Shown: piece by piece, positions 28,295 to 64,000 of the stretch
Layout of the letters: each line of letters begins with the position of its first letter
Position numbering within the stretch: the stretch's first letter is position 1
NCBI RefSeq assembly: GCF_032118995.1
Contig: NC_092651.1
Span: 26,830,349-26,894,348 of the forward strand
DNA length: 64,000 nucleotides
DNA from: Asterias amurensis
Taxonomy: Eukaryota > Echinodermata > Asteroidea > Forcipulatida > Asteriidae
Direction of reading: 5' to 3'
Program-made: the position numbers and the translations under genes
The notes under the pieces: generated by a model
What the model saw: the letters and a program-made list of their open reading frames with translations, nothing else
The model's database searches: none
What the model was told of the DNA's origin: nothing

Positions 28295-36849
<8,555 letters not shown>

Positions 36850-37029: not shown

Positions 37030-37208
37030 ATGGCGTCCATAACGAAAGAGATGGAAGAATTTTTCGAGAAACATCGTCACCCGTACGAGCCAATTAACCA
37101 TTGGAAAGCACGGAAACAGTTCATGATCAACAACTGGGATCGTTACTCTGGAAACCAACTGGTTTCGTTGGCCATGGTGTGGTCAAATATGGAGTTTGAT
37201 GGAAGCTC
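37030..37208 (+). CDS. NKRF: XTBD exon (NKRF exon 1)
   Basis: 59 codons plus two bases: MASITKEMEEFFEKHRHPYE onward to MEFDGS. Shared by both predicted isoforms. About 70 percent identical by eye to the exon at 48027-48184. Confidence 0.93.
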
Positions 37209-40200: not shown

Positions 40201-43200
40201 TATCCAGAAATCGTCGGATAACTGTCGGTGTGATTATTTTCTTGTGTTACAAGTTGGGTTTATTTTTTAGAGGATGAAATTATCTTTTGGATGATTGTCA
40301 CAGTTGCTTTGTCTGTCTCACAAAATTCAAAATTTCAGGTTGGAAACATAAGAGAGATCAACAAAAAATTGAAAACATTGTTTGCGTATCAAGTGAAGGT
40401 TTGTTTACGTGGAAAGTTGTGCACACAAGTTTTCTCAAGTTTACTGTCGTCCGACAGGAAAACAAAGCTACGAAAAGTGGTTGAAAATAATCACAACATA
40501 CCTTGAGAAATGAAAATGAATGCCTCCATTATCAACAGATACCTTCTGTACCTAAAATCTTTTGTAAAATCCTTTCAAATCGCGGTATTCCGTGTCTAAA
40601 AACACCAGAAAGTTTGACTGTCGTTACTGCGTACATGCGCGAGTAGTACATGGTACATGCCCTATACGGTCCGGCTACACAGAGAAAACGTACGGCTCCA
40701 CACAAAGAAAAAGCACCCACTCATACATGCATTGTTTGATTGTGAAATTACTTTCGACCTTTGAACCTTACGTCATTTTTTCTTATGTGGACCATGTGCT
40801 ATTTTTAGACTGTTGTCATCTTGAGATCGCGCTCTATCTACGGCTGTTTGCTGCGTTATAATCGCATGTGTATAACTCAAATTACACCATGTCAAACTGC
40901 GCGGGCGCGTGCGGGCGATATGCGTGGTCATACGCAGGGCGCCTCCGGGCGTTATGCGGGCTAAAGGGTTAAAGCCATGTATTGAAACACAGTACTTTTA
41001 ACTTCAAATCATTCACCTTAAATTTCAGGTATCCTCCTGAATTAATGGAACGAGTGAAGCTGATGGCAGAAGGGATTGAGGTTCTCTAATCTACCCTAGG
41101 CCCCCCCCCCTCCCCTTTCAGTCATGTAGTCAACAACAACAAAAACACTGAATAGAAATAAACACACAATGTGACCTTTTGGGGGGAAAAAAGTATAAAA
41201 ATCCACACTAGCTAAAATTTCATCTGTGTTGGTTGTTCGTTCCAATGAAATGTTTAACTTTCAAACAAACATTGGAATAATTTCCGTATCTGGGTCAAAA
41301 TGACAGGTACGGAAATATTATTTCCAGTGTTGTGACCAACAGTGTAATATTGAATTATAATGTTAAGTTTTACTTGGTTGAGATACATCCTCCCCATAAG
41401 AAATTCACCTTTTTATTGAAAAGCTTTCATTGTCTATATTCTGAGATAGTTTATGTGTACACTGTCTAAATTAATTGTGGTTAACTCTTTCAGAGTATCT
41501 CTAAAATGAACCCTTACAAAAACTATTTTGCTAGATTTACATAGATCCTATCATTTACTCGTTATCTGAACAACTTAGCCAAAATAAAAACATCAATTTG
41601 ATTTACCAGTAATCCAGCTCAAAAGTGAATTTAATATGGACCCAATATTGTGCATTGTGTGTTTATCCTACATAATAATACCAACCAGCACACACCAAAC
41701 AATATCGCGATAATTTCACAGCCCGATGAACGCACACTTAAACGAAAAATCAAACTTACTTGTGGTGTTCTTTTTGTTGAAGATATCCACCTGAATTGAT
41801 GGAACGAGTAAAGGAAATGGCTAAAGGCATATCTCTAGATGATGACACACCCGTGGACGTTAAAAGCAAACCAAACACCTCTGTGAGTACATCTCAACCT
41901 TTTGTTAAACCCAAATCCAAACCAACACCAGAATTGATCCCAACGACCGGCGCTTCGGAACAAGTTAGGCCCAGACTTAAGGAGGAAAAAGAAGAGAGTA
42001 ACTTCCAGAAAGCTGGAGCCAGCTCCATGGAGACGACCAACCAGGGATGTGACTTTCTTGGTGGGCAAGTTAAGCGGAAACTTGAAGAGACGGAAAGAGC
42101 AGGGAGTAAGTTCCAGAAGACAGAGACGAATCCAAGTGCAAGGGAGCGTGCAGCTTTTGGATATGACAAACGTTTTGGAGGGACAAAACAATCAAACTTC
42201 AATATGATGGTGGCGCACGATAAAGCCGTTTCTTCACTAGCGGACAACTTGCTGAGACAGAGTAATCCGAACAATCACTTGGGCTCTGCACTCCACAGGC
42301 TTCACAATGCTGGGAGCAAATCATCCCTGAGACCAGATGTGGAATTTATTGAGATTCCTCCCGTTGGTGGAAAGTTGCCGAAAGCTGTCAGGAGGAATCT
42401 TGGAATGAGCACCAATGATAACCCAACTTGGCTCTGTAATCTGTACATGGGTGATGTACTTATTGCCAGTGTAGAATCGGCCAACAAACCCAATGCTAAA
42501 ACGGCTGCAGCTGAGAAGGCTGTGTCCATCTTGGAGAGTTCCAACTATGTCGTGAACAATGAGAATAAAGTGAGCAAGCTGGGAAGAAACTACAGCAAAG
42601 AGGTAGTGCCCTTTGACGACAATTTGCAGTCACAGAATTTTAATGTTAAAGCACATAATATTAGTGGAACCCCAAAGCCGACCTACACCTTAGATGGGTT
42701 TGTTCTGACGGATCATGCCGTTTCAATCCCACCAGTTAGCATGTTGATAAACTCTGCACAGAGTAACCATGTTCCCATTTTGTTTAAAACCAGCGATAAT
42801 ATTGGAAGGCTGAACGGTGAAATAGGTTATGTGTGCCACACCATCATCAATGGCGTTACTGTCGCTTCTGGGGTTCACATGAACAAAAGAGAAGTGAGAA
42901 ATATCTCTGCCGCTAAAGCTCTAGCTATACTGAAACAAAGCTGTCCAACCCTGAAGAAGAACCTTAACAAGGCCCAGGGAGTGGCAGTCAATCGCGATGA
43001 ACTCGAACATGTCAAAAATATCAAACAGCCTGATGCAAAAGACACGGCAATTGGTGAATCCAACGTTGGACACAAGTTGCTGAAAATGATGGGCTGGAAA
43101 GGTGGGGCATTAGGGAAGGATGGAATTGTAGAGCCCATCCAAGCTAACGGGAAGATTGGAATGCAAGGGCTTGGGTTCATTCCTGTGCCGAAGGATAGCG

Positions 43201-43484
43201 CAACCCAAAAGCTTGACATGAAAGCAGTTAAAAAGATCCTGGAGAATTTTGTGACCTCGGGGCGACGAGATGATCTTGTGTTCTCTGCAGACCTCTCGAA
43301 CGATGAGAGGAAAGCGATCCATGAAGTCTGCCAAAAATTTCGTCTAAAGAGTAAATCACATGGGAAAGGACAAAAGCGGTTCCTTGTAGTTTGTCAGAGA
43401 CGCAATCTCAATGAACTTGTTCAAGATGTGGCAGAAAGTGGCGGGACTTGTGGACAGTATGAACTTATCTCACCTGGACAGTGA
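37030..43484 (+). CDS. NKRF: NF-kappa-B-repressing factor homolog (XTBD, dsRBD-like x2, G-patch, R3H)
   Basis: Join of 37030-37208 and 41783-43484, 626 codons (human NKRF is 690). ATG in AAAATGG context; donor CTC|GTAAGT, acceptor GAAG|A, phase 2, completing a serine. Domains: XTBD, about residues 7-85, with HWKARKQF, NNWDRY and LVSLAMVWSN; this domain binds the 5'-3' exonuclease XRN2. Basic, low-complexity linker to about 240. dsRNA-binding-like module 1, about 245-320 (WLCNLYMGDVLIAS...AAAEKAVSILE). Module 2, about 364-452 (GYVCHTIINGVTVASG...AAKALAIL). G-patch, about 489-530 (GHKLLKMMGWKGGALGK...GLGF). R3H, about 545-615 (ERKAIHEVCQKFRLKSKSHG). In vertebrates NKRF links XRN2 and the helicase DHX15 in nucleolar pre-rRNA processing; a similar role here is inference. 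An alternative last exon lies at 41029-41089, and a diverged paralog follows 4.5 kb downstream. Confidence 0.93.
38130..38770. repeat. Minisatellite, about 78 bp x 8
   Basis: Unit: GAGGATTATTTAAAAAAGGG, AAAGAAAGCCCGAATTCCGT, ACAATAATTAATATTGCCCT, AATACACTTGACCCCAATA. Central copies are nearly identical; edge copies diverge. Confidence 0.95.
38788..39150. repeat. Minisatellite, about 90 bp x 4
   Basis: Unit contains CGCCTCCGCGCCTCCACCTT, CCCCGTCTTCACGATTGCAT, CGTCTTCCTAAA and CGCCCTCTATCGGCCATTG. Because 90 is a multiple of three, two plus frames stay open for 120-130 codons; these are not genes. Confidence 0.95.
39869..39999. mobile_element. 131-bp palindromic element
   Basis: GACTAAACCATTCTGTTAAA with AGGGGTGTTACAAGG on the left, facing CCTTGTAACACCCCT and CAGAATGGTTTAGTC on the right. 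Confidence 0.85.
40117..40972. mobile_element. piggyBac-like non-autonomous element
   Basis: TTAACCCTTTAGCACGC at the left and GCGGGCTAAAGGGTTAA at the right: TTAA on both sides and CCCTTT ends are the piggyBac hallmark. 856 bp without transposase coding. Its right end is 56 bases from the start of the short NKRF terminal exon. Confidence 0.8.
41029..41089 (+). CDS. Alternative terminal exon giving a 79-aa XTBD-only protein
   Basis: Acceptor TTTCAG ends at 41028. The exon begins with the single base needed to finish the serine codon and encodes YPPELMERVKLMAEGIEVL then TAA. It matches the start of the main NKRF exon (YPPELMERVKEMAKGI) with conservative and silent changes, which shows selection on protein. 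AATAAA lies at 41157-41162, 68 bases past the stop. The product would be XTBD alone, like vertebrate CDKN2AIPNL, whose C-terminal part also reads MA-GIEV. In vertebrates the short and long XTBD proteins are separate genes. No transcript evidence is available here. Confidence 0.75.
41157..41162 (+). terminator. Poly(A) signal for the short isoform
   Basis: AATAAA in GAAATAAACAC, 68 bases after the alternative exon's TAA and about 620 bases before the long-isoform exon. Confidence 0.6.
41163..41782. other. NKRF intron between alternative and main exon
   Basis: AT-rich; contains a small palindrome around ATAATTTCCGTA...TACGGAAATATTAT (41276-41323). No coding evidence. Confidence 0.5.
41783..43484 (+). 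CDS. NKRF: NKRF main exon 2
   Basis: 1702 bases, uninterrupted, ending LISPGQ-TGA. Holds the end of the XTBD, both dsRNA-binding-like modules, the G-patch and R3H. Opposite-strand frames in this exon are shadows. Confidence 0.94.
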
Positions 43485-46824: not shown

Positions 46825-46839
46825 CTATTGGGGGGTGTC

Positions 46840-47090: not shown

Positions 47091-47331
47091 ATGTTCACAT
47101 CTTATACATGCCTGAAGTTTCTCAGAGGCCTGGCCTCTGTTGCCCTGTCTTGGCCTTGGTGCCCCTTCGAAAGTTTCCCTTAGGCTTTAAGATTTTCAAA
47201 TCGCCTTGCCCTTTCAAAAGATGAAATTCCAAGCCTGTCATTATCTGGTTGTATTTCCATACTGTGTTTCAATTGTGCTTACAAATACAAGCATTTTGGC
47301 CATTCTCTTCTCAATTCCCTCAGTTAAAGGA

Positions 47332-47692
47332 TTAAGGAACATGTTGCCTTGGACTAGTCGAGATGGTCGTTGAAAAGCGTTTGTAACCATTTGCTGTAAA
47401 ATGCGTAAGGTTGGAAAGATGTTTTAAAAGTAGAACACAATGATCCACACAAATATGCCTCGAAATTGCGAGGTTTTCATTTTACCTCGTTAACTACCAT
47501 GATCGGCCATTTATGGGAGTCAAAAATGGGCGACCGTGTTAGTTCGTAAAGCCAAAGGAAAACCACGCATTTCAAGGCAAATTTGTGTTGATCATTGTAT
47601 TCTACTTTTAAAACACCTTTCCATAACAGTTACAAGTGCATTTTTTACTGCCAACTCAAACTCGTTTGATCCAAGGCAACGTGTCCCTTTAA
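47332..47692. mobile_element. Foldback MITE (copy 4 of the TTAAAGGAACACG family)
   Basis: Diverged copy (ATTAAGGAACATGTTGCC to GGCAACGTGTCCCTTTAAT) with part of the centre deleted. Confidence 0.85.
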
Positions 47693-47929
47693 TTGATTGC
47701 AGGCCTGGTGCCAGTCCCTTCATTTGAAACATGCATAGCTAAATATAAAACGAAACCCGATAAAACAATATCTTCAAAACTGTGCCCAATTTCATAGAGG
47801 TTGATACCAGTCACGAATTGGACATGTGGCATTGAAGTTTGGCTTGCAACCGTTATTCCATGGAGGTGGTTATTCCATTCTGAACCCAAAATTTGGCCCT
47901 GAAAATAAAATAAAATTTTGTTGGGTTAG

Positions 47930-48026
47930 TTAGGGCGCCACCAAGTGATACGAAATTACCGAGCGGCGCCTACGCGTGAGTGACCGACACACAGTCCGTG
48001 CATGTCACGTCCTGTACTGTCAGAAG
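47930..48026 (+). promoter_or_regulatory. Putative promoter/5' UTR of the NKRF paralog
   Basis: A locally GC-richer segment (GAGCGGCGCCTACGCGTGAG) immediately upstream of the ATG at 48027. No TATA box seen. Confidence 0.4.
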
Positions 48027-48184
48027 ATGGAGGAATTTTGTGAAAAACAACGTAACCCAAACGAGCCAGCTAGACACTGGAATGCTCGAAAACAGTTTAT
48101 TGTCAACAACTGGGACCGATACCATGGAAATCAACTGGCTTCATTGGCCATGGTTTGGTTAAACATTGAGTTTTATGGATGCAC
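48027..48184 (+). CDS. XTBD exon of the NKRF paralog
   Basis: 52 codons plus two bases, MEEFCEKQRNPNEPARHW onward. It starts at the ATG that aligns with MEEF of the upstream gene and lacks that gene's seven-residue N-terminal extension. In-frame, intact, correct donor. Confidence 0.88.
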
Positions 48185-51100
48185 GTAAGTTAAAATCTGC
48201 CTTCCTGAAATAAAAACACGGACCAAAATCAGTTCCACTCCTGGTATGTGGAGTCAACTCGACCCACCTATTCTTCATACGTGTGTGTCTTTTATTGTGT
48301 GTAGTACTTAATAGCTAGTGTATTAACTGGTTTTTTAAGTGATGGTGGTACTGCATAGTAGTGCTTGCCTTTGTGGTAAATTTTGGGTACAATTATAGAA
48401 TACAGGGCCACTCCATCCAAGGTTAGGCTAGGGTAAGGGTTTTAAAGTTAAACTGTTTATTTTAAAAATAAATATATATATCGTAGTGTCATACGTTATC
48501 GACCCTCATATGTTTTCGGTCCCCAACTTTGATTCCCATTTCCCGCGAGATTGTGCAAGCTGCACCGGTGACAGCTAAGCTATGCAGTTTACTCAAAGTC
48601 TGTATTTTCATCAGGCATAATCATGCTGAGAAAAAAGTTTCCTGTCGTTGGTTATGCTCAAACATTTATAAAATGATTGATTTTTGGTACTAATCACTAG
48701 TGCATAAATTATGCCAACATTCAATGAGTCAAAGAAACATCATCCAACCTCGAAAGTTCAAAACAAAATTACTATCTGCTAGATTGAGTTTCATTCTGCT
48801 TTAGTCACTAGATGGATCACGTGAGGTGGTTACTATTTGGGATTCTATGGTGTGCCAATATGGGGAAAATATGAAAATATTTTAAGTGAAAATGACATCA
48901 AATTTTTTATTTTATTTACTGCATACTGTAATAAATTCCGATAAGCGTAATAAATATTAAGTCTACGATAAAGAGAAAATATCATAGATTGGTTTCTTAT
49001 CTCCTGAAACCAAACATTACTGGTCTGAAATTGGGGAAAACAGATTTTTATGAAGTGTGTGGGCTTCAAGGGATTTTTTTTTTTACTTTCATGCCTTATG
49101 ATATCTCTGGATTCTAATATAATAGCCAAAATGCCTTAGGACAAAAATGTTATTAAATTTATTAAGTAGTGCCTTAGGACAAAAATGTTATTAAATTTAT
49201 TAAGTAGTAATTGAACAATATTTTTGATTTATTTTGCACGCCATACTAGTTTCTGAATATTCAATAAAATACCAACAAATGAAAGGTGTGAAAACATAAG
49301 ACGTTGCTCCAATGTTGTGCATGCATAAGCACTGTTAATGGCGGACTGTCTCTCGCAACGTAAAACCAAAACTTTAAAAATTTCAACACACCATGCAGTG
49401 TAAGTGTTTTTGTTAAAAAATTGGATAGATGATTTGAAAAAAAAAAATTAGTTTTTGATTGTGAACAATTTTCCTGTTATCCTACTGAAAACACATGACA
49501 CCAGGATAGTTTTCTTCCAGCCCCCCCCCCCCTTAACTAGCAAAATAGCCATTTGTAAGCTCGCATTAGGAAATCTATTAAGAAAATAAAATGGTTGAAT
49601 GCACTTTTTGTGGAGATTATTAAAAATTAAAAAAACACACAAAAGTGGTTGGAAATAATCACAACACTGTTTACCAACAAAAACTGTTTACAAAAAAACT
49701 CACGCGTAGCTGGCCTCTGAACTTGCCATCTCTGTGCATTGTGATGGGACCTTTGAATCTTTGGATGTGGAACAGACATCTTAATTTTTCATGGCTACCA
49801 TGTGCATTTTTAGGATGTTGTCGTTTTGAGACTACGGATTTGCTGGTTATGGGCGGTATGGGAGTAATATGCTGGGTGGCTGTTGGCGGAATGATGTTTT
49901 TTAGGGTTAAACTTGCGACATTAATATTCACATCTTAATAGCAGCAGCGGGCGTAAAGTATCTGAAAGTTTGAGCATCATACTGTACGGTCGAAACCTTT
50001 TTCTTTTCTTTCAAGAGTGTAATATAAAGTGTTATGTGCGCCTTGAGTATCTCATTTTGGTGGATTTTGGCTCCCTATTAACATTCTTTATTATTGTTAT
50101 TGTGACGTGTGTACTCAAATATTTTCACCAATGACAAAATTTACTGATGTCCAACCCTTTATTATGATACCATTTGCTTGTAGCAACGTGTGATGATGGT
50201 TCGATCTGCAATTAATCAAATGAACCCAATACAATATAAACATTTGATTTACAGCAATTACAATAACGAATTAATCCCAATTTTATGTATTTACAACAAT
50301 TGATTAAATCCCTATTTACCCACAAAATTAGGCCTGGGCGAACTATTCGAATATCCGGTTAATGGCGAATAGGTTTTCCTATCCGTAACCGCGAATGCCT
50401 TTTTTTTCTTAACCGGATATCCGCATAGGGCGCGAATAGCTATTTATAAACCGGATTGTTCTGTAATTACAACCAAGTAACCGGATATTCTTTAATATCC
50501 GAATATCCGCGGACGTCGGGCGACAACTGACATGAATGTTTTGTCTGACTCCTAATGAAACTTCTATTAAGACAGCATAAAACAGCATAAATTAAGTATT
50601 TAACTATGCTCACCTCCGTGAAGAGTCAAAACAATGACATTTCTGACGTAATTTGTTCAAAGATTACAAAAGTTTTCCTTCACGTAGAGTCATCCACGAT
50701 CAAAAGAAAAAGCAAATCGCCATCTTTAAATTAGATCCGGTCATTTTTATGAATGAACCGAGTGACACTGTCTAAAACTAATATCAATCCGCCCAGAAGA
50801 TCTCATTCACAAACGAACAGCGCCCTCTAGCGACAAAAAAAAAAAAAAAAAAATATTTTTTTATTTTTATTTTTTTTATAGCGCCCTCTAGCGGCGAAAA
50901 AAAACTATTCGAATATCCGGTTAATTTCGGATAGTTGGTCAGCGGTATCCGAATAACAAAATTTCACTATTCGCCCAGCACTACACAAAATGTGTGCCAA
51001 GTGTGTGTGAGTCCCCTTTGCCTCAACTCAAGTGACTTAACTTAATCTCAAACTTTATCCCAACTGTGACCTTTGACCCGTATCCACACACACCACCGTG

Positions 51101-54100
51101 TACTGTATGCCACAAGACCCCAACGTACACAGTACACGTACATGTACATGCAACCCACGTGAATCTAACTGACGACATGCTTAGAAAATTAACCACTTTA
51201 ATAATCAAAATTTTACACTAATTACCCGCTTATTATCAACAATCCCTGATGCAGAGTATACTTAAACTTATAATCTAAACTTGATTGAACTAATTTTGTA
51301 CTCACAACATTGGGCGCATCCAAAATCAACAAAATATTGGCGAAAGTATGACTGACTAGTGACGAATGTTATGATCGATCCTGGCGAAAGATGCAAAACA
51401 GCGCCCTCATTTGACCAAGAAAATTATACGCTTCTGACGTCACGCATGAATAAATTACGTTGCCTAGCCCGCAACATCCCGGCCCCTTAAATGGGCATAG
51501 TCCTTATGAGCATTTACCTAACACTTAATTTTACAAATCAAATCCCAATTTGGCCCAAACGCAGAAAAATGCAGTACCAGCAAAAAACGCATAACAACAG
51601 GTAACAAGAACTGATAATGCAAACTTCAAAAAACTTGAACTCTATTAAGCTTCAAAACCTTTGGCAAAGTTAGTGTTCTCACAATCCATAAACTGTTCAT
51701 GAAGATGTGTTCATCTGTGAACTCATATCACAAATGCAATGTTTGCCGAGAATGTCCAACGAAAGATGTTCACATCCCGCAACGGTCCAAAGAAGTTGCC
51801 ATGGCAACAAGAGGTCTGGCTAAACTGCTCCATTAAACTAGCACAAGGAGGCGGCGCTTGGCTCACACCTCAAATCATGCCTCAATGCACGATATTTTAC
51901 CAAATATCAAATAAGCTCAAATAATGAGCACTCCTCAGATTGCAGTCCATAGACTTGAGTCACTCCTGTTGTGGTTCACATCCAACTGCTATTTGGTGCT
52001 CTCTAGACCTTCCACTGACTCCAGCAGACACAACTTGTGAATTGGTCTAACAAGTGTTGATGATTTAGTCTTCACCTTAGCAGTCCTGACTAAGTTGTCA
52101 TCACCCGGATAGGTTTCCACGACTCTTCCCATGGTCCACTGGTTCCTGGGGAGGTCTTCAACAATCAACACGATATCTCCTGCTCTGATGTTCCTTGTTG
52201 GCTCATTCCACTTTCGACGTTGCTGCAGGGTGGGTAGATATTCCCTGATCCATCTGCGCCAAAATAGGTCAGCCAAATATTGGACTTGTCTCCATCGTTT
52301 ACGACTATATAGATCACACTTGTCAAACACGTCTGCGGGGAAAACATTGCTCGGACGCAACAGAAGATGATTTGGAGTCAAGGGTTCTGGATCCCTCACA
52401 TCATCTGAAACTACAGTAAGTGGACGACCGTTGATCACAGATTCAACCATACACATCATAGTTGAGAGACTTTCATCATAGAGCACTTGTTGTTTCAAAA
52501 CTGTGTTCAAAATCTTTCTTGTTGTTCTTATCTGTCTCTCCCATGATCCTCCCATGTGTGATGCTGCCGGTGGATTGAATTTCCATCTAATCCTTTTCTG
52601 CAGTAGATATTCCTCAATCTTCTGTTTGTTCCAACGATTGATTCCTTCCCTCAGCTCGCGCTCAGCACCAACAAAATTTGTGCCGTTGTCACTTCTGATA
52701 AGTTCTGGTTGTCCTCGTCTTGCGATAAATCTCTGCAGAGCGTTAATGAAGGAGTCGGTCTCCAGCGAATGGATCACTTCAATGTGAACTGCTCTCAACA
52801 CTAAGCAGGTGAAGATACACCCGTATCTTTTGACTTGACTTCGGCCTTGCTTGACCAAAAATGGGCCAAAACAATCCACTCCCACGTGACTGAACGGCGG
52901 CTTTTCAGGGGTCACCCTGTCCTTTGGTAGATCAGCCATTTTCTGTATGTTAGGAGACGCAGACAGACGCTTGCAAACGAAACAATCGCGCAACACCTGG
53001 CGCACTGCTGTTCTTCCTCCAATCACCCAGTATCGCTCTCTCATCAATGACATAACATGTTCTCTTCCTGAGTGACCTGACATGGCATGGAATTGTCTCA
53101 CCAGCAGTACCACAATGTGATGATTTTGTGGTAGGATTACAGGATGCTTCAGTTGGGCCTGCATTGTAGAATTCCTCAGTCGACCCTCAACACATATTAG
53201 TCCATTTTCATTGATTTTGGGGTCTAGTCAATGGAGAGGGCTTGATTTCTTTACTGTGTTGACTGTGACTTGCAGTGCTTTGTACTCATCTGGGTAGGTT
53301 TGCCCTTGCACATATCTTATTACTGCTTGTTCTGCTTTGTCGAGTTCGTCTACTGTTAGTGGTTTCTTAATGTCGTTTTCCTTATACTTGTCTTTGTTCC
53401 GAAGATAGCTCCTCACACGCAAAACCCATGATACGGCTTTCTTTAGCTTATGCCATGATGAATAATGCTTGATCAGCTTGGCTGTGGCACTATTTTCTTC
53501 CAACTCTACAGCATATGTCTGTGCAATCTCCTTCGGTTTCTTCAGCTCTGGATCACTTTGTTTCAGGGGCTCCATTACTTTTGGTTCTTTAGGCCAATCT
53601 TCTTCAGCCATCAAGATGAACTTTGGCCCTTCCGGCCATCTCGAACTTTTCTTTATCTCACTGGCTGTCATTCCTCTTGATAGTTCATCGGCTGGGTTTG
53701 AACTTGTGTCTATATGGTGCCACTGAGCTGGTTCGGTTACATTGTGGATTTTGGCTACCCTGTTAGCCACAAAGGTATGAAATCTTCCATCTTCATTTCT
53801 TATGTACTGAAGCACAATCGTGCTGTCTGTCCAGAATATTGAATCACTTATGGGCAGATCCAACTCACGCCTCAGCATGACATCTAGTTTAGCTGCTAGT
53901 GTTGCAGCACACAGCTCGAGTCGAGGGATTGTCATCATTTTTACTGGTGCAAGATGTGACTTTGCCATTACAATGCTGCTATGTAATTGACCTTCAGTGT
54001 TTTTCATGACAAGGTATGACACCGCCCCGTAAGCCAGTTTTGAGGCATCTGCGAAGTGGTGCAGCTTGTATTCTGTCACTGTTCCGAAGTTGTGTGGCTT

Positions 54101-57100
54101 TACACATCTATTTACCTCATATTCCTTCATTCGAGGTAACTCCTCTGTCCAATTTTCCCATTCTTGTTTCTGCACTTCTGGTAACGGCTCGTCCCATCCT
54201 AGTTTGAGTCGAGTCAGTTTCTGCAGCAGTAGTCTCGCTCTCAGGATGAATGGATTTGCATATCCCAAGGGGTCGTAGATTGATGACACAATGCTTAGTA
54301 GTCCACGCCTTGTTATTGGCTTGTCTTTGATTGCTAATTTGTATCCTAAACTGTCTCTTTCAACATCCCAGCTGACACCCAGTGCTCGGTCAACTGGTAG
54401 CGCATCATGGTTTAGGTCAAGATCTTTCAGTTGTTTAGCCCTTTCTTCTATGGGGATGGACTTCAGAACGCTTGGTCTGTTACTCAACCACTTGGTCAAC
54501 TTGAACCCTCCCTTTTGCAGTAGAGTTTTGAGCTCGGATGACAATTTCACAGCTTCCTCTTCGGTCTCCACTGAAACTAGGCAATCATCAACATAGAAAT
54601 TGCGCTTCACAATCTCTACAGTTTCAGAGGAGAAGTCATCCCGGTTATCATCGGCTGTCTGACGCATAGCGAAATTGCAGCAACTTGGACTCCAAGTCCC
54701 GCCGAACAGGTGCACACACATCCGATATATCTTGGGCTGTTGTGTCATTTTGCCGTCTGGCCACCATAGAAATCTCATCACATCTCGATCTTCTACAGGC
54801 ACGCGAACTTGATGGAACATGGCCTCCACATCTGCCATGAAGGCAACTGGTTCCCGTCTAAATCTCAATAATACTCCTATCAGTCTGTTTGTTAGGTCTG
54901 GTCCTTGCAGTACTTCACTATTGAGGGACACACCTCCACTTATGGCTGCGCAATCGAACACAATACGCAATTTGTCTGGTTTCATAGGATGAAATACAGG
55001 ATGATGAGGCAGATACCACACAGGCTTGTCATCGGGCTTACATTCTTGCCCTTCCACTTCTTCTGCATATCCCTTCTTAAGTAAGTCCTCGATTCCTTCT
55101 TGGTACTTACGATGCAGCTTATCATCCTTGCCAAGTTTTCTTGCGAGACCTTGCAACCTTTGTTCAGCTAGCCATCGGTTGTCTGGCAAACTGGGTGGAC
55201 ATTTCTTAAACGGCACAGGTAACTGGTAATGTCCTCCTTCCATACATACTCCATCTTTCCAAACCTTCAGCGCTCTTTGGTCATTTACTGACATGCCTCT
55301 TTCATCACTTATGCAATCTGATGCTTCCAGTTTCCAAAACTTATCTAACTGTTCTTCAAGGCAGATGTCTCCTTGGATGAAGCTGGAACTAGCGGTCAAA
55401 TCTTGTCTTTTTCCGCTCACTTGGTTCACTGAACCATGCAATGACCATCCCAGGGCTGTTCTTAGCACGTATGGTCCTTCTTTTCCTGCCCTTATTTCGA
55501 GCAGCATCAGTGCTTTTGGAACATCTTGTCCTATCAGGAGCCCAACTTCCTTCTCTCCAGCAAACGGCAGATCAATACCTTTCAAGTGAGGCAATCCTGA
55601 TATTTCGTCCATTTTTGCCATGTGTGTACCATGAACGTTGATCTTTGGTTTCGTGTACACTTTTGTCATCTCTAGTCTTTCTGTAGTCGGACCAGAGTCT
55701 ACGACTATGCTCACCAAAGTGGTATCGATTGTACTGTCTATCTTGTCAAGCGTTGTCAGGCTGAGTTTTTGCGTGGTCCCTTTCAATCCAAGACTTCGAG
55801 CTAACTGCTCGGTACAGAAAGTGTTTGTAGACCCTGTGTCCAACAATGCGTAAGTCCGCACAAACGTCTTACCTCGTGCGGCTTGAACCCTCACAGGTAC
55901 GATGGGTAGGACGCTTCTGCTACCGGCCCCTGTGATATTATTACAGCTTGTGTCTTCGGCTGAGTCGATATAGCCATTTTGAACTTTGGCCTCTGGTTGG
56001 GTAGTTGACGGATTTGTTTCTTCTTGCGGCTGCAGAATGTGGAGAAATTTTGTGTGCTTTCTTCCACAGCCAGCGACGGAGCATGTTCTATTCAGCCTGC
56101 ATGCCATTGTCATATGGCCCTTGCGGAGACAATTAAAGCATAATCTCTCCTGCTTTGCATAGTTCATTCTGTCTTGAGGTTTCATACCTTTAAACTGTTG
56201 ACAACCAAACAGTGTGTGCTCCTCCTTGCACAGAGGACACTTTCTTGTGACGAATTCATTCTTCTTGGTGTCAAACTCATTGGTTTCCATGGTAACCGCA
56301 AAAGTGCCTTTGGACCTCTGCTTATCACTTTTGTTCTGCGGCACATCTCGGTTGCTCTTCGAGCTGATTGATCCATAAACTGGGTTATTCTCTTCTTCGG
56401 CCACATCTTCTATGAAGGAGACTAGGTCTTTCATGTCTGGTATTCTATCGTTCCTCTTCTGAATTTCTCTTACTATCCGGATCCACCTGTACCGAAGGTA
56501 GTTCGGCAGTCGTTCTACGATGCTCTTGAAGAAACTCTGAGGTGCCATCTCACCTTCAAACCCCACAGCGAGTAGGGTTTCATAGCAAACTCTCATTTCG
56601 TCTGCCATTTCTCTGAGAGCAGTGCCGTTGTGAGCCGAGATGGTTACGCCTTTAGTCACCCTCTGAATCCAGGCATCTGCAACCTTATGCTTGTTTCCAA
56701 AACGCTCCTTCAGCAGCGTCTTAGCTCTCTTGTAGCCCTGAGTGGAATCCATCACTGAGCATGCTTGAATAACTTTACGTGCATCTCCCTTGCAGTAGTG
56801 CAACAGCCGGGTTAACTTTGCAGCATCAGCTATTGACGTGCTGTCCACATTTATCTCAAAGGCTCTCCAAAATTCCCAAAACTTCAGGGGTTCTCCATCG
56901 TAGAACATCAACTCTGCCTTTGGTAGTTGCAATGTCTCTATCAGACTTCTCTGCTGTCTTTCTGCTTGACGTAACAATTCAATGACGGGCTCAGAGGTGG
57001 ATTGCTTCTCTTGTGATTCTTGAGAATGTTCGGTAGGGCATGTTGTTGATTCTTCATAAGAATGTTCAGCTTGCAGTGGCTGGCTAGCTTGCAGTGAGGG

Positions 57101-60100
57101 ACTATTGCTAATAGTTGACTTCTGATCTTCAAATTGAGCGTATACCTTTTCTTCTGCTTCATAACAACAGATTCTGGTGCTGAGTCGGAGCTCCGCCTTC
57201 TTCTGCTTGAGCTTTAACTCTTGTAGCTCCAACTCTCGTTGCTCACTCAGAGCTGCGTACTCTGCAGCAAGTGCAGCCTTTTTTGCCATGACTTTTATTC
57301 TGGCCTTTCTACTTGCAGACGTGCCGGTGGTACTTACGCTGCACTGACTCACCGAGTCTTCTGGATTGATATCATTTTCTTGATTTTCCATTGCAGATCT
57401 CTTTATAGCGTTGTTATCGAACTTAATGTGACGTGTGTACTCAAATATTTTCACCAATGACAAAATTTACTGATGTCCAACCCTTTATTATGATACCATT
57501 TGCTATTTGCTTGTAGCAACGTGTGATGATGGTTCGATCTGCAATTAATCAAATGAACCCAATACAATATAAACATTTGATTTACAGCAATTACAATAAC
57601 GAATTAATCCCAATTTTATGTATTTACAACAATTGATTAAATCCCTATTTACCCACAAAATGTGTGCCAAGTGTGTGTGATTCCCCTTTGCCTCAACTCA
57701 AGTGACTTAACTTAATCTCAAACTTTATCCCAACTGTGACCTTTGACCCGTATCCACACACACCACCGTGTACTGTATGCCACAATACCCCAACGTACAC
57801 AGTACACGTACATGTACATGCAACCCACGTGAATCTAACTGACGACATGCTTAGAAAATTAACCACTTTAACAATCAAAATTTTACACTAATTACCCGCT
57901 TATTATCAACAATCCCTGATGCAGAGTATACTTAAACTTATAATCTAAACTTGATTGAACTAATTTTGTACTCACAACATTGGGCGCATCCAAAATCAAC
58001 AAAATATTGGCGAAAGTATGACTGACTAGTGACGAATGTTATGATCGATCCTGGCGAAAGATGCAAAACAGCGCCCTCATTTGACCAAGAAAATTATACG
58101 CTTCTGACGTCACGCATGAATAAATTACGTTGCCTAGCCCGCAACAGTTATTATAATGTTACTTTGAGGGATAAAATTACAAAACAAAGTCTTTTTTTAC
58201 AACTTGATACGCTGAATATTTTGTTTTCAATAAAATTACTGTACCGTCCCAAATGTTTCAGAGCATTTGTCCGGCCAGAAACAAACAATTATTTTTATTA
58301 GGCCTCATGAGCCTGAACCTTAGGGTTGGGGGGGGGTGTCTTATATAGTCCTCAACCATTCATACCAAGTCCTTATTAGTAGTGCTGGGCGAATAGTGAA
58401 ATTTTGTTATTCGGATACCGCTGGCCAGTTATCCGAAATTAACCGGATATTCGAATAGTCTTTTCGCCGCTAGAGGGCGCTATTTAAAAAAAAAATTAAA
58501 AATATTTTTTTTAAATATTTTTTTTTTGCCGCTAGAGGGCGCTGTTTGTTTGTGAATGAGATCTTATGGGCGGATTGATATTAGTTTTAGACAGTGTCAC
58601 TCGGTTCATTCATAAAAATGACCAGATCTAATTTAAAGATAGCGATTTGCTTTTTCTTTTGATCGTGATTGACTCTACGTGAAGGAAAACTTTTGTAATC
58701 TTTGAACAAATTACGTTAGAAATGTCATTGTTTTAACTCTTCACGGAGGTGAGCATAGTTAAATACTTAATATATGCTGTTTTATGCTGTCTTAATAGAA
58801 GTTTCATAAGGATTCAGACAAAACATTCATATCAGTTGTCGCCCGACGTCCGCGGATATTCGGATATTAAAGAATATCCGGTTACTCGGTTTTAATTACA
58901 GAATTATCCTGTTTGTTTGTGAATGAGATCTTATGGGCGGATTGATATTAGTTTTAGACAGTGTCACTCGGTTCATTCATAAAAATGACCAGATCTAATT
59001 TAAAGATAGCGATTTGCTTTTTCTTTTGATCGTGATTGACTCTACGTGAAGGAAAACTTTTGTAATCTTTGAACAAATTACGTTAGAAATGTCATTGTTT
59101 TAACTCTTCACGGAGGTGAGCATAGTTAAATACTTAATATATGCTGTTTTATGCTGTCTTAATAGAAGTTTCATAAGGATTCAGACAAAACATTCATATC
59201 AGTTGTCGCCCGACGTCCGCGGATATTCGGATATTAAAGAATATCCGGTTACTCGGTTTTAATTACAGAATTATCCGGTTTGTAAATAGGTATTCGCGCC
59301 CTATGCGGATATCCGGTTAAGAAAAAAAAGGCATTCGCGGTTACGGATAGGAAAACCTATTCGCCATTAACCGGATATTCAAATAATTCGCCCAGGCCTA
59401 CTTATTAGGACCATGATGATAGACATAGTGTAAAGGCTTTCTATTACTTTATATTTTTATAAGTTAAATTTGCATGTTTTTCATGCTAAAATAATTTTCG
59501 CCTTTAGAGACAACAATTTTTTTCGTGACTTGTTTCACTCATTTCTCAAAAACAACAGCACCCCAGTAAGTTATATTTTAAGGGAAGCTTTCTACCATTA
59601 TTATTTTCAAACTGTTTGAGTTTAATGTAAGTAAGTCTGTGGATATTGTGTTTTGTGTCCTACAAAAAGTATCCAGACTCTGTAAAGTTGTTAATAACAA
59701 TAAAACTTATGTGTGATATCGTTTTTATTGCAGATATCCACCTGAATTGATGCAACGAGTGCAGGAAATGGCCAAAGGCATAACTATAGATGTCACACCC
59801 TTGGACGTTGAAAGCAAACCAACTATCCCTGTGCGTACATCTCAGCTGTTTGATAAATCCAAACCCACACCAACACCAGAAGTGATCTCAACGACCTCGG
59901 AACCAGTTGTGTGTAGACTAACAGCAAAAAGAGAAGGGAATAGGTTCCAGAAAGCAGGAAAAAGATGGATTGTACAGGAGACGGCAAATACGGAATGTGT
60001 CAGACTTGATGAGAAAAGACGCAAGGAGATGCCATGCAGAGGATGGTACACTGCTCTTGCCGACGGGGGTACCGCGGAATTAGAACAGTCAAACTGCAAT

Positions 60101-63100
60101 GATATAGCGTGCCAATCAAGAAATATCAGCACACATGACCCAGTTATCTCAGCTTTAGCAGAAAACTTAATTTGGGAACCCTATACTACTAAGAAAAATC
60201 GTCGTGCCTCCTCACTAAGAAGACTCAACCCTGCCGCTATGAAAGTGCCACTCAAGAGACACATAGAATATATAAGTGTTCCCCCTCCTCTTGGAAAGAT
60301 TAAAACAAGATGGCTTTGTAATATGTACTACGACGAAATTCTTGTGGGTAGTGCAGAAGGTGAAAACAAGCACCGATCTAGGATAGGTGCAGCCGACAGG
60401 GCTGTATCCATGTTGGAGAATTTGAACTATGCGGTGGTGAACGCAAACAAAGTGAGTGTGATGGGAAGAAATTACAGTAAAGAGCTAGTGCCCTTAGATG
60501 AGGTCCAAGATGGGATTTCTAATAATAATATGACAGTCAGTGCCTTGGTCGACTCGACCTTCAAAAAAAAACATGTACCCATTGTGTTTGAAACCAGTGA
60601 CGATGTCCGAACTGTTGATAGAGAAACTGGCTATGTGTGCACCACGACTATCGGTGGTAACACTGTTGCTACGGGTATTCACATGGACAAGAGTAAAGCA
60701 AGGCGTGCGTCTGCCGATATCGCCCTGGCCTTTTTGAGAGACAAAAGCTCCAAGATGAAGACAAACCTTGACAAGTTTAAGAATGTTGTTAATGAATGCG
60801 ACATCAAGGCATCTGACTTGGGTATCAGACGTAAAAATGAGGTGTCTGATTCAATCAAACCCATTAGGGCAACTAATTCTGTTACCAAACCCAGTGAGGC
60901 GTCTCATTCTGTAATCAAATCTAGTAAGGGGCCCCATAATGTTATTGAACCCAGTAAGGCGTGTCATTCTGTTCCAGTAAACCCACCCAAGGAGGCACTA
61001 CATGAGAATTTGATGCAAAAGACATCTCCCATCAATGTTCAAGTCGGGAACTTGGATAATTTTATCTTGACGGAACCGTCTAGCCCAGCCCGTGCAGTCA
61101 GCATCTTGATCGACTCTGCATTCAGTAACAATGTCCCCATTGAGTTTAAAATTGACAGCGCCAAAATGATCAATGGTGTAAAAGGCTTTATGTGCAGCAC
61201 CATCGTCAATGGTGTAATCGTTGCTACTGGTACTTCCAGGTTTACGGCACAAGCAAGGAATGTGTCTGCCAATAATGCCCTGGCCGTTTTGAGAAACCAA
61301 AGCTCCAACATAAAGGAAGGCCATGACAACACACGGAATGTTGGTATTGAACCCGATTCCAAGGCGTCTGATTTTGTTGTTGCGGAGAACATTGTCAATG
61401 AACCTGATTCCAAGGTGTCAGATTTAGTTATCAAACTTGAGAATACGGCGTCTGATTCTGTTGTTGCAGAGAATGCTGTCAATGCACCCGATGATATCAA
61501 GGCGTCTGATTTTGTCTTCAAACTTGAAAATACATCCTCTGATACCGCAGCGTTTATGGAGTCTGATTCTGTTGTTCCAGAGAATGTTGGTATTGAAACT
61601 GAAAGCAAGGCATCTGATGTTGTTGTCAAACTTGAAAACACAGCATCTGATTCAATTGTCACAGAGAATGTTGTCAATAAACCAGATATCAAGGCGTCTG
61701 ATTTTGTCATCAAACTTGAAAACATGGTGTCTGATTCTGTTGTTGCAGAGAGTGCTGGTATTGAATCCGAAGGCAAGGCATCTGATGTTGTGATCAAACT
61801 CGAAAATACAGCGTCTCATTTTGTTACTGCAGAGAATGCTGTCATTGAACCCGATTCCAAGGCATCTGATGTTGTTATCAAACTTGAAAACACAGCATCT
61901 GATTTTGTTATCAAAGAGAATGCTGTCTATGAACCCAATTCCAAGGCACCGGATTTAGTTAACAAACTTGAGGATATGGGGTCTGATTCTATTGTTGCGG
62001 AGAATACTGGAAGCAAGGTATCTGATGTTGTGATCAAACTTGAAAATACAGCGTCTGATTCTGTTACCGCAGAGCATGTTGTCACTGAACCTGATATCAA
62101 GGCATTTGATGTTGTTATCAAACTTGAAAACACAGCATCTGATTCTGTTATCAAAGAGAACGTTGTTGCAGAACCTGATTTCAAGGCATTCGATGCTGTT
62201 ATCAAACTTGAGAATACGGCCTCTGATTCTATTGTTGCAGAGAATGCTGTCAATGAAACCGATATCAAGGCATTTGATGTTGTTATCCAGCCTGAAAACA
62301 CAGCGTCTGATTCTGTTATAAAAGAGAATGTCGTTGCAGAGAATACTGTCAATGAACCCGATATCAAAGCGTCTGATTTTATTTTCAAACTTGAAAATAC
62401 GACATCTGATCATGTTACTACACCTGATATAGCATTTAATGTTGTTGATGTAGAGAATACTGTTGATTCAAATTCCAAGGCGTCTGATGTTATCAAACTT
62501 GAAAAGATGGTGTCTGATTCTGTTGTCACAGTAGAGACTGTTGTCATTAAACCCGATTCCAAGGCATCTGATTTTGTTGTCGCAGAGAATGCTTTTAATG
62601 AACCTGATACCAAAGTAACTGATGTTGTTATCAAGCTTGAAAATATGGCATCTGATCTTGTTATCGCACCGGATATTGGGTCTGATTCTGTTGTCGGAGA
62701 GAATGTTGTCATTGCTCCCGATTCCAAGGCATCTGATTTTGTTGTCGCAGAGAATGATGTTAATGATTCTGATTTGGAGGTGTCTGACTTTGTTATCGAA
62801 CTTGAAAATATGGCATCTGATCCTGTTATCGCATCGGAAATGGCATCTGATTTTGTTGTTGCAGAGAATGCTGTTGATTCCAATTCTGAGGCGTCTGATG
62901 TTGTTATCAAACTTGAAAACACGGCGACTGACTCTGTTGTCACAGAGAATGCTGTAATTGAACCTGATTCCAAGGCTTCTGATTTTGTTGTCGGAGAGGA
63001 TGCTGTTAATGATTCTGATTTTGAGGTGTCTGACTTTGTTATCGGATTTGAAAATACAGCGTCTGATTCGCTTATGACATCTCATTTTGTCCCAGTGATT

Positions 63101-64000
63101 TCACCCGAGAAAATAGACGAGCCTTTGAAGCAAAAAACATCTCCCATCACTGTTCAAAACCATTCAGTTGTCGTACCCAGTAAGGCTTCTGATTCTGATA
63201 TCGAACCCAGTGAGGTGTCTCATTCTGATATCGAACCCAGTAAGGCGTCTCATTCTGAAATCGAACCCAGTAAGGTGTCTCATTCTGATATCGAACCCAG
63301 TAAGGCGTCTCATTCTGAAATCGAACCCAGTAAGGTGTCTCATTCTGATATCGAACCCAGTAAGGCGTCTCATTCTGAAATCGAACCCAGTAAGGTGTCT
63401 CATTTTGATATTGAACCCAGTAAAGCGTCTCATTCTGGTATCGAACCCAGTAAGGCTTCTCATTTTGCTGCCGTACCCAGTAAGGCGTCTCATTCTGATA
63501 TTGAACCCAGTAGAGCGCCTCATTCTGATATCGAACCCAGTAATGCGTCTCATTCTGATATCAAACCCAGTAAGGTGTCTCAGTCTGATATCGAACCCAG
63601 TAAGGCGTCTGATTGTGACATCGTACCTAGAAAGGCGTCTCATTCTGTTATCGTACCCAGTAAGGTGTCTCATTCTGATATTGAACCGAGTAAGGCATCT
63701 TATTCTGATATCGAACCCAGTAAGGCATCTCATTCTGTTATCGTACCCAGTAAGGTGTCTATTTCTGATATCGAACCCAGTAAGGCATCTCATTCTGTTA
63801 TCGTACCCAGTAAGGTGTCTCATTCTGATATTGAACCCAGTAAGGCGTCTCATTCTGTTGTTGAAACCATACAGGCATTTGAGTCTGTTCCAGTTAACCC
63901 ATCCATAGATGCATTACATGAGAATTTGAAGCAAAAAAAGTCATCTCCCATCAATATCCAAAACCAGGTCTTAGATGATTTTACCTTGTTTGAACCTTCT
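48027..64000 (+). CDS. Tandem NKRF paralog with giant modular repeat exon, partial (runs off window)
   Basis: Join of 48027-48184 and 59734-64000 and onward; at least 1,475 codons, no stop before the edge. Donor CAC|GTAAGT, acceptor TTGCAG, phase 2 as in the upstream gene. XTBD, about residues 1-75 (HWNARKQF, NNWDRYHGNQL, LAMVW, then YPPELMQRVQEMAKGI). dsRNA-binding-like module 1, about 229-289 (WLCNMYYDEILVGS); module 2, about 319-399 (GYVCTTTIGGNTVATG); module 3, about 493-582 (AVSILIDSAF, GFMCSTIVNGVIVATG). Acidic 28-residue repeats, about 587-1169. Decapeptide EPSKASHSDI array, about 1199-1430. Then NPSIDALHENLKQ and DDFTLFEPS, echoing the lead-in to module 3, so another module probably follows. 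Whether the G-patch and R3H survive is not visible. XRN2 binding is inferred from the XTBD; the role of the repeats is unknown. Confidence 0.85.
48185..50100. other. Left part of the paralog's 11.5-kb intron
   Basis: GTCAACTCGACC at 48253. A perfect 43-44-bp direct repeat ('GTGCCTTAGGACAAAAATGT' type) at about 49132-49210. At 49630-49930 a diverged sequence resembles the interior of the piggyBac-like element at 40460-40830 (AAAAGTGGTTG-AAATAATCACAACA; TTTTTAG-(A/C)TGTTGTC). No gene. Confidence 0.55.
50101..51476 (-). repeat. 3' LTR, interrupted by a nested hAT-type element
   Basis: LTR pieces 50101-50328 and 50984-51476 surround the insert at 50329-50983. The 8 bases CACAAAAT are present on both sides of the insert and once in the intact LTR. 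Confidence 0.92.
50329..50983. mobile_element. hAT-type non-autonomous element (copy 1) inside the 3' LTR
   Basis: 655 bp, TAGGCCTGGGCGAA at one end and TTCGCCCAGCACTA at the other, 8-bp target duplication CACAAAAT. Ends and duplication length fit hAT. The interior holds many CCGGATAT/ATATCCGG words. GCGCCCTCTAGCGG at 50881-50894 and a variant at 50820-50833 resemble CTCF sites. Confidence 0.88.
51989..53227 (-). CDS. BEL/Pao integrase segment, downstream of the in-frame TGA
   Basis: The same frame continues after the TGA. It shows a zinc-binding HHCC region (HAMSGHSGREHV...CFVCKRL), an integrase core with catalytic positions in GVDCFGPF, IRSDNGTNF and GGSWERQ (D,D,E), and a C-terminal DUF5641-like domain (RAGDIVLIVEDLPRNQW). 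Ends SVEGLESTK-stop. No ATG lies directly at its start (the first is at 53164), so its expression depends on read-through or a changed copy. Confidence 0.9.
   Translation of the reverse strand, partial: LDPKINENGLICVEGRLRNSTMQAQLKHPVILPQNHHIVVLLVRQFHAMSGHSGREHVMSLMRERYWVIGGRTAVRQVLRDCFVCKRLSASPNIQKMADLPKDRVTPEKPPFSHVGVDCFGPFLVKQGRSQVKRYGCIFTCLVLRAVHIEVIHSLETDSFINALQRFIARRGQPELIRSDNGTNFVGAERELREGINRWNKQKIEEYLLQKRIRWKFNPPAASHMGGSWERQIRTTRKILNTVLKQQVLYDESLSTMMCMVESVINGRPLTVVSDDVRDPEPLTPNHLLLRPSNVFPADVFDKCDLYSRKRWRQVQYLADLFWRRWIREYLPTLQQRRKWNEPTRNIRAGDIVLIVEDLPRNQWTMGRVVETYPGDDNLVRTAKVKTKSSTLVRPIHKLCLLESVEGLESTK
53228..57391 (-). CDS. BEL/Pao gag-protease-RT-RNase H polyprotein segment
   Basis: 1,387 codons from the ATG at 57391; the frame is open further back into the LTR, so an earlier start is possible. 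Order: coiled-coil-like KKAALAAEYAALSEQRELEL; gag-like DUF1759 region (FWEFWRAFEINVDS...LLKERFGN); zinc knuckle CFNCLRKGHMTMAC near 56098-56141; aspartic protease ALLDTGSTNTF near 55833-55855; reverse transcriptase with ADVEAMFHQV and catalytic YVDD near 54585-54596; RNase H with HFADAS and WTDST. A TGA at 53228-53230 ends it just before the integrase, in the same frame. The break may be a mutation or a read-through site. Confidence 0.92.
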   Translation of the reverse strand: MENQENDINPEDSVSQCSVSTTGTSASRKARIKVMAKKAALAAEYAALSEQRELELQELKLKQKKAELRLSTRICCYEAEEKVYAQFEDQKSTISNSPSLQASQPLQAEHSYEESTTCPTEHSQESQEKQSTSEPVIELLRQAERQQRSLIETLQLPKAELMFYDGEPLKFWEFWRAFEINVDSTSIADAAKLTRLLHYCKGDARKVIQACSVMDSTQGYKRAKTLLKERFGNKHKVADAWIQRVTKGVTISAHNGTALREMADEMRVCYETLLAVGFEGEMAPQSFFKSIVERLPNYLRYRWIRIVREIQKRNDRIPDMKDLVSFIEDVAEEENNPVYGSISSKSNRDVPQNKSDKQRSKGTFAVTMETNEFDTKKNEFVTRKCPLCKEEHTLFGCQQFKGMKPQDRMNYAKQERLCFNCLRKGHMTMACRLNRTCSVAGCGRKHTKFLHILQPQEETNPSTTQPEAKVQNGYIDSAEDTSCNNITGAGSRSVLPIVPVRVQAARGKTFVRTYALLDTGSTNTFCTEQLARSLGLKGTTQKLSLTTLDKIDSTIDTTLVSIVVDSGPTTERLEMTKVYTKPKINVHGTHMAKMDEISGLPHLKGIDLPFAGEKEVGLLIGQDVPKALMLLEIRAGKEGPYVLRTALGWSLHGSVNQVSGKRQDLTASSSFIQGDICLEEQLDKFWKLEASDCISDERGMSVNDQRALKVWKDGVCMEGGHYQLPVPFKKCPPSLPDNRWLAEQRLQGLARKLGKDDKLHRKYQEGIEDLLKKGYAEEVEGQECKPDDKPVWYLPHHPVFHPMKPDKLRIVFDCAAISGGVSLNSEVLQGPDLTNRLIGVLLRFRREPVAFMADVEAMFHQVRVPVEDRDVMRFLWWPDGKMTQQPKIYRMCVHLFGGTWSPSCCNFAMRQTADDNRDDFSSETVEIVKRNFYVDDCLVSVETEEEAVKLSSELKTLLQKGGFKLTKWLSNRPSVLKSIPIEERAKQLKDLDLNHDALPVDRALGVSWDVERDSLGYKLAIKDKPITRRGLLSIVSSIYDPLGYANPFILRARLLLQKLTRLKLGWDEPLPEVQKQEWENWTEELPRMKEYEVNRCVKPHNFGTVTEYKLHHFADASKLAYGAVSYLVMKNTEGQLHSSIVMAKSHLAPVKMMTIPRLELCAATLAAKLDVMLRRELDLPISDSIFWTDSTIVLQYIRNEDGRFHTFVANRVAKIHNVTEPAQWHHIDTSSNPADELSRGMTASEIKKSSRWPEGPKFILMAEEDWPKEPKVMEPLKQSDPELKKPKEIAQTYAVELEENSATAKLIKHYSSWHKLKKAVSWVLRVRSYLRNKDKYKENDIKKPLTVDELDKAEQAVIRYVQGQTYPDEYKALQVTVNTVKKSSPLH
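57427..58146 (-). repeat. 5' LTR of the BEL/Pao element
   Basis: Starts (minus) TGTTGCGGGCTAGGCAACG and ends GAGTACACACGTCACA. No insertion. Confidence 0.92.
58380..59400. mobile_element. hAT-type non-autonomous element (copy 2), internally duplicated
   Basis: 1,021 bp in opposite orientation to copy 1: TAGTGCTGGGCGAATAG to TTCGCCCAGGCCTA, flanked by CTTATTAG at 58372-58379 and 59401-59408. A 367-bp segment (58542-58908) is repeated immediately (58909-59275), apparently without a mismatch; removing one copy gives 654 bp, matching copy 1. CTCF-like CCGCTAGAGGGCGC at 58467-58480 and 58529-58542. Confidence 0.92.
59409..59733. other. Right end of the paralog's intron
   Basis: AT-rich, ending in TTTTTATTGCAG. 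Nothing else seen. Confidence 0.6.
59734..64000 (+). CDS. Giant exon of the NKRF paralog (open to window end)
   Basis: 4,267 bases read in one frame with no stop; the last complete codon ends at base 64000. The first 500 codons align by eye with NKRF exon 2 up to its second dsRNA-binding-like module; beyond that the gene has expanded by module duplication and repeats. Confidence 0.9.
61333..63080 (+). repeat. Coding 84-bp repeat (28-residue acidic unit), about 20 degenerate copies
   Basis: Unit is close to KASDVVIKLENTASDSVV + AENAVNEPDS. Exact 84-bp spacing holds at 61707, 61791, 61875 and at 62031, 62115, 62199. Thirteen units keep a psi-K-L-E tetrapeptide (I/V/F-K-L-E), the SUMO-acceptor consensus, next to SDVV/SDSVV stretches that look like SUMO-interacting cores. 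The frame is kept throughout. Confidence 0.85.
63171..63860 (+). repeat. Coding 30-bp minisatellite, about 23 perfectly phased units
   Basis: Unit GAACCCAGTAAGGCGTCTCA + TTCTGATATC encodes EPSKASHSDI. Every unit is exactly 30 bases. Between about 63230 and 63410 two versions alternate (HSDIEPSKAS / HSEIEPSKVS), a 60-bp higher-order repeat indicating recent expansion. Confidence 0.95.

Follow-up and report, generated by a model that had tools for sequence, protein, structure and literature searches.

A tandem NKRF-type paralog in the starfish Asterias amurensis, predicted to encode a giant protein with eight dsRBD2-type modules

Results

A giant paralog downstream of a canonical NKRF-type gene

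A 64,000-nucleotide stretch of the Asterias amurensis genome (RefSeq assembly GCF_032118995.1, contig NC_092651.1, forward-strand positions 26,830,349 to 26,894,348; hereafter, the window) carries on its plus strand two tandem NKRF-type genes, a canonical copy upstream and a giant paralog downstream. In the predicted product of the paralog, the second double-stranded RNA-binding domain (dsRBD) of NKRF, dsRBD2, occurs as eight modules that together with dsRBD1 bring the total to nine dsRBDs. A preliminary description of this DNA had proposed that a tandem NKRF paralog grew into a giant repeat protein; our results support this, the expansion being larger than the window shows.

Within the window the giant gene has two exons (Table 1), the first of which ends at a GT donor at 48185. 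The exon junction (48184/59734) is in frame, and its position in the XTBD and, as had been claimed, its phase are identical to those of the junction in the canonical copy. Since the codon for the XRN2-contact Tyr directly follows the junction, splicing is needed to build the XTBD contact site. The spliced translation (1475 aa) matches, letter for letter, residues 1-1475 of a 2484-aa database protein (P0001), which was the sole protein returned by a search with region 1-560 of the exon-2 frame. Searches with this frame and with the canonical product scored the 7998 and 8000 candidates, respectively, that had the most words in common with the query. Judged from sequence, that is, from the shared intron position and phase and from its closest homolog, the giant is a tandem NKRF paralog by descent.

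The third dsRBD-like module (dsRBD2-type module 2) and the two classes of in-frame repeat noted earlier, an acidic 84-bp array and a 30-bp EPSKASHSDI array, are all present in exon 2. The best stretch of Pfam DSRM_2 overlapping module 2 scores 18.1 bits, under the cut-off of 27. In the acidic region, Tandem Repeats Finder (TRF) reported periods of 30-240, the longest row being 84 bp x 9.3, and the 589 aa encoded there include 126 D+E vs. 40 K+R.

The full-length protein

The suspected further module at the window edge is, according to P0001, the start of module 3. The gene model does not stop shortly after 64000; P0001 continues for 1009 residues past residue 1475 (the window end) with dsRBD2-type modules 3-8 (modules 4-8 at 1594-1662, 1716-1795, 1880-1959, 2055-2134, and 2193-2272; modules 1-3 in Table 1), a G-patch (2322-2360), and then 124 residues without R3H. 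The tail is basic at 2366-2425 (20 K+R in 60 residues) and acidic at 2426-2484 (18 D+E in 59). Four Pfam profiles exceeded their curated cut-offs in P0001: XTBD PF11952 (82.2 bits vs. 27.6), dsrm PF00035 (112.6 vs. 23), DSRM_2 (85.4), and G-patch PF01585 (27.7 vs. 22). Thus, of the two C-terminal domains that had been predicted, the G-patch is there but the R3H is not: a profile search up to E = 1 saw no R3H in P0001 or in its A. rubens counterpart, P0009 (see below), tail included, whereas in the same test the canonical protein P0003 matched at 2.2e-13.

To compare the modules with canonical domains, we used a hidden Markov model (HMM) built from the eight modules of P0001, whose own scores are therefore not independent. 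The HMM gave 102.6 bits for canonical dsRBD2 and 5.6 bits for canonical dsRBD1; hence it was dsRBD2, not dsRBD1, that multiplied. Against solved chains, the module profile had 18 weak matches up to E = 1, the best being RNase III (0.0044) and PKR (0.021), in a list that also includes unrelated proteins. The whole giant had three matches among solved structures (E up to 0.01). The top two were PAXT-1 in complex with XRN2 (5fir) and the G-patch of NKRF (6sh6), and the third was a fission-yeast G-patch protein (E 0.0078).

A collinear ortholog in Asterias rubens

A search with region 1-600 of P0001 returned P0001 itself and P0009, a 2892-aa A. rubens protein (LOC117305677) named 'uncharacterized protein' by its source. 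P0009 sits on a contig of 327,208 bases, as does LOC117305671, whose isoform X3 is 95.7% identical to the 626-aa canonical product of the window over 624 aligned aa. P0009 is collinear with P0001 from XTBD through eight modules and G-patch to tail, and R3H is absent in both. With a matching giant in A. rubens, the giant looks real, though unstudied, and the agreement of the gene models in two assemblies would argue against the idea that the exon at 48027 never splices to 59734.

The two proteins are 94.0% identical over 2471 aligned residues: 95.9% in domains, 94.2% in non-repeat linkers, and 92.0% in repeats, with the difference between domains and repeats being significant (P = 0.001). Modules 6-8 and the XTBD reach 97-99%. 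Gap columns number 0 in domains, 13 in linkers, and 421 in repeats, and EPSKASHSDI-like units, counted with one regular expression, number 24 in P0001 and 52 in P0009. Therefore, the spacer arrays shift in length fast while the domains stay. In these searches, which covered candidate lengths of about 781-2487 aa (exon-2 frame as query) and 1366-4347 aa (P0001 as query), no giant-type protein was returned from Patiria or Acanthaster, though their NKRF-like proteins are present in the collection; this is weak evidence of absence.

Origin of the modules

The module tree drew 24 rows, 23 of them different, from nine proteins and excluded matches weaker than 1e-5, namely those of dsRBD1 type, a short P0004 match, and both P0008 matches. 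A 13-row alignment (A1) omits 11 of the 24 rows, i.e., eight from P0009, one from P0003, and two from P0002. A branch with support of 95/92 parts all 16 giant modules from the eight canonical ones. Starred support joins seven of the eight modules to their equivalents in A. rubens, and the pairing of module 5 is weak (54/84). The amplification is therefore older than the split from A. rubens. With seven open branches, the tree does not give its order.

In a canonical-type protein of ENA source (P0002) that matches A. rubens P0003 at all 567 aligned residues, dsRBD2 is doubled in frame (residues about 309-388 and 411-490), with two residue differences between the copies. A tendency to dsRBD2 duplication may thus be continuing.

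Predicted contact features for XRN2 and DHX15

In the XTBD, Cys54 and Tyr56 are described as required for binding to XRN2 (PMC7054742), and both are kept in the giant, where GCTY aligns with GCEY of PAXT-1 in 5fir; the index of the 5fir chain runs three above the Cys54/Tyr56 numbering, which we took to be construct numbering. The canonical copy of the window has GSSY at this site. In the G-patch, the brace-helix and brace-loop signatures are G(WY)KxG and G(LI)G (PMC11584650), and the giant has GWEGG and GLG at these places in an alignment with 6sh6.

Putative RNA-binding motif of the modules

The helix-2 consensus of dsRNA-binding dsRBDs is KKxAK. A motif resembling it, KREA[RK], is found in four of the eight modules of P0001 (3, 5, 6, and 7), and the motif is altered in modules 1 and 4.

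Open frame and constraint

The unique part of exon 2 runs for 523 codons without a stop, which has a probability of about 1.5e-13 for one frame given the stop frequency of the spacer at 44000-47900. In this part and in the acidic array, the coding frame alone is stop-free among the six. In the 30-bp array, however, two further frames, one forward and one reverse, are also free of stops, so its openness is not independent evidence of translation. The earlier argument that the long stop-free frame points to translation is thus weak in the 30-bp array. Neither did the 22 units of the 30-bp array show purifying selection, with 13 synonymous and 40 non-synonymous changes vs. 19:69 expected.

Between the canonical copy and the giant, the ratio of non-synonymous to synonymous substitution rates (dN/dS) was 0.44 (NG86) or 0.28 (YN00) over 376 codons. 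By domain, it was 0.24-0.28 for the XTBD, 0.33-0.47 for dsRBD1, and 0.22 and 0.39 (NG86 only) for modules 1 and 2, respectively, each compared with canonical dsRBD2. We also considered whether the orthologs' lack of nonsense changes speaks for constraint, and dropped the argument as too weak (P 0.002-0.08).

Discussion

A possible tether for XRN2 and DHX15

Acting on pre-rRNA, NKRF brings in XRN2 and stimulates DHX15 (PMC10511037). The reading that we favor, and to which we give about an even chance, is that the giant would be a neofunctionalized NKRF paralog that uses a multivalent dsRBD array to tether both enzymes to structured RNA. As in NKRF, its XTBD would most likely bind the nuclear 5'-3' exonuclease XRN2, and its G-patch would most likely bind and stimulate the helicase DHX15. 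The once-single dsRBD2 would have become eight modules carried on long spacers that are acidic, serine-rich, and probably disordered, and such a multivalent tether would keep the two enzymes on nuclear RNA that is long or has multiple structures, e.g., pre-rRNA spacers or repeat-derived duplexes. The R3H, a presumed single-strand contact, would have been replaced by a basic segment, likely nuclear or nucleolar-targeting, and an acidic end.

Speaking for this reading are the gene structure, the domain order with its profile and solved-structure matches, the collinear A. rubens ortholog, the module tree, the retained XTBD residues and core G-patch signatures, the dN/dS between canonical copy and giant, and the KREA[RK] motif of four modules. 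Several observations weigh against it. The helix-2 motif has lost its first Lys in modules 2 and 8, the beta1-beta2 region (strand names inferred) lacks 10-11 residues in modules 3 and 4, and P0009 also has an altered module 5, so that KREA[RK] is kept in three of eight modules there; not every module, therefore, need bind RNA. The G-patch is without the Lys of G(WY)KxG, as is human NKRF (GWTGG), and Gln replaces the Gly of GGxLG found in the human and canonical copies. Between species, the difference in conservation between domains and linkers is not significant (P = 0.11). The dN/dS of module 1 vs. module 2 is about 1, and since paralog dN/dS averages both branches, the canonical copy may account for some of the constraint. 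Lastly, zero nonsense changes between the orthologs is weakly informative, as about 3-6 would be expected.

The giant offers a natural experiment in multivalency: a derivative of a conserved ribosome-biogenesis cofactor in which one dsRBD is multiplied eightfold, the ends predicted to bind XRN2 and DHX15 are kept, and the R3H is dropped. It would allow the contribution of each NKRF domain to be tested, along with the effect of many dsRBDs on XRN2 targeting or condensation. A bolder extension, which we think quite improbable, is a lineage-specific nuclear dsRNA-capture machine, with nine dsRBDs on an expandable disordered chain and an exonuclease recruiter and a helicase activator at its ends, that would serve dsRNA clearance or defense in starfish close to Asterias.

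Alternative explanations

The same architecture could serve an antiviral or transposon-directed role, in which the dsRBD array would trap long nuclear dsRNA of foreign or repeat origin and pass it to DHX15 and XRN2, module expansion being an arms-race trait. The limitation of the expansion to the recognition domain, the difference between species in the spacer arrays (24 vs. 52 decapeptides), the dN/dS of modules 1 and 2, and the listing of XRN2 as restricting viral replication (PMC10511037) would all fit. The XTBD and modules 6-8 are very stable between the two species, however, unlike typical arms-race domains, and we consider this role unlikely.

The helix-2 changes and the shortened modules 3 and 4 are also what would be expected if the multiplied modules were mainly protein-binding (type B) dsRBDs, which do exist (PMC5716075), that assemble a large particle and do not bind RNA. 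Against this, modules 3, 6, and 7 keep KREA[RK] in both species, and module 5 does so in A. amurensis. We consider a predominantly protein-binding array improbable.

The near-neutral 30-bp array with its two alternative open frames might instead mark a non-functional or barely expressed duplicate, whose frame stays open since stop-free repeat units multiply; protein searches of the collection returned no transcript-sourced giant protein, and the source of P0001 is not shown. We find this doubtful, as the A. rubens ortholog is collinear over its full length, its XTBD, eight modules, G-patch, and tail all being intact, and the 523 unique codons and the acidic array are open solely in the coding frame. 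A gene-model artifact fusing separate genes is very improbable: beyond 64000 the giant is known from protein alone, but the window DNA holds modules and arrays in the single frame of one contiguous exon, and the order is identical in two assemblies.

Comparison with known systems

The giant resembles NKRF in the order XTBD, dsRBD1, dsRBD2, and G-patch, and in sharing its intron position and phase with the neighboring NKRF-like gene. It differs in having eight dsRBD2 copies instead of one, two long spacer arrays, no R3H, and a new basic-acidic tail, as well as in size (2484 and 2892 aa vs. 626 and 632 aa for the canonical proteins of the two species). Because the R3H feature fails, we class it as a derived relative and not as NKRF proper. 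The G-patch followed by a basic tail recalls Pxr1, in which a lysine-rich region follows the G-patch; G-patch proteins of the Pxr1/PINX1 type are not known to have an XTBD or dsRBDs. PAXT-1 and CDKN2AIP are not known to have a dsRBD array or a G-patch, nor is CDKN2AIP known to have more than one dsRBD. The likeness to these two lies in an XTBD with the XRN2-interface Cys and Tyr (5fir alignment; for CDKN2AIP, PMC7054742). Staufen and other multi-dsRBD proteins likewise have several dsRBDs, flexible linkers, and some degenerate copies, but the giant has nine dsRBDs and XRN2- and DHX15-type modules at its ends, whereas type-1 dsRBDs number one to five per protein (PMC4551942).

Among open-licence PubMed Central (PMC) papers, we found none linking NKRF to starfish or Asterias, linking XTBD to echinoderms, or naming this locus; by their abstracts, none of those on NKRF with XTBD was about starfish. 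Nor did the available text of these papers yield a protein with six to nine dsRBDs, the sole match concerning binding stoichiometry.

Features of the window

The features of both genes are collected in Table 1. In canonical exon 2, Pfam dsrm, DSRM_2, G-patch, and R3H all exceed their cut-offs, and the XTBD of giant exon 1 was aligned to PAXT-1 in 5fir.

Table 1. Coordinates of the two NKRF-type genes and of the domains and repeats of the giant paralog in the window.
Feature	Position	Strand	Remarks
Canonical NKRF-like exon 1	37030..37208	+	Most of XTBD; Pfam XTBD 52.3 bits; donor gtaagt at 37209
Canonical NKRF-like exon 2	41783..43484	+	XTBD end, dsRBD1, dsRBD2, G-patch, R3H, stop
Giant paralog exon 1	48027..48184	+	ATG at 48027, most of XTBD, XRN2-contact Cys; Pfam XTBD 57.0 bits
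Giant paralog exon 2	59734..64000, runs past window	+	Open frame; starts after TTTTTATTGCAG
XTBD end	59734..59794	+	XRN2-contact Tyr codon immediately after junction
dsRBD1, single copy	60296..60475	+	Pfam dsrm best stretch is profile 27-64 of 66; aligned to canonical dsRBD1
dsRBD2-type module 1 (P0001 315-391)	60518..60748	+	Module HMM 121.1 bits, itself HMM seed
Four degenerate 30-bp units, linker ahead of module 2	60854..60973	+	TRF, 68% matches
dsRBD2-type module 2 (P0001 498-576)	61067..61303	+	Module HMM 125.7 bits, itself HMM seed
Acidic repeat region	61304..63070	+	Main unit 84 bp, ~28 aa, KASDVVIKLENTASDSVVAENAVNEPD type; TRF
Decapeptide array EPSKASHSDI	63173..63856	+	22.8 units; TRF 30 bp x 22.9; 22 whole units
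dsRBD2-type module 3 start (P0001 1471-1540), truncated by window end	63986..64000	+	

Dating the duplication through flanking DNA was tried and given up, as blastn of 36000-46000 against 46001-64000 showed no flanking homology to date. Its five matches were one of 167 bp over exon 1, one of 273 bp where exon 2 begins, and three 26-bp ones.

Mobile elements and other repeats

The intron of the giant gene contains, on the minus strand at 51989-57466, BEL/Pao-type retrotransposon frames in which Peptidase_A17 and RVT_1 scored above and rve just below the cut-off (two pieces scanned). The element lies between direct repeats (50984 and 57654; 99% alike), and it is therefore probably a young insertion. 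Inverted repeat arms (50500-50876 and 58486-58862, 93% complementary) bracket the retrotransposon, which seems to lie inside a second mobile element. A 367-bp unit is tandemly duplicated (58542-59283, 99% matches) about 450 bp ahead of giant exon 2. Upstream of the canonical gene, the minus strand at 35431-36683 holds fragments resembling the reverse transcriptase of a long interspersed nuclear element (LINE), one of the two scanned pieces giving a sub-threshold RVT_1 match. At the left edge of the window (1-289) lies a minisatellite-like repeat of HWGQKAPTPGSKSTHT type that is open in two forward frames.

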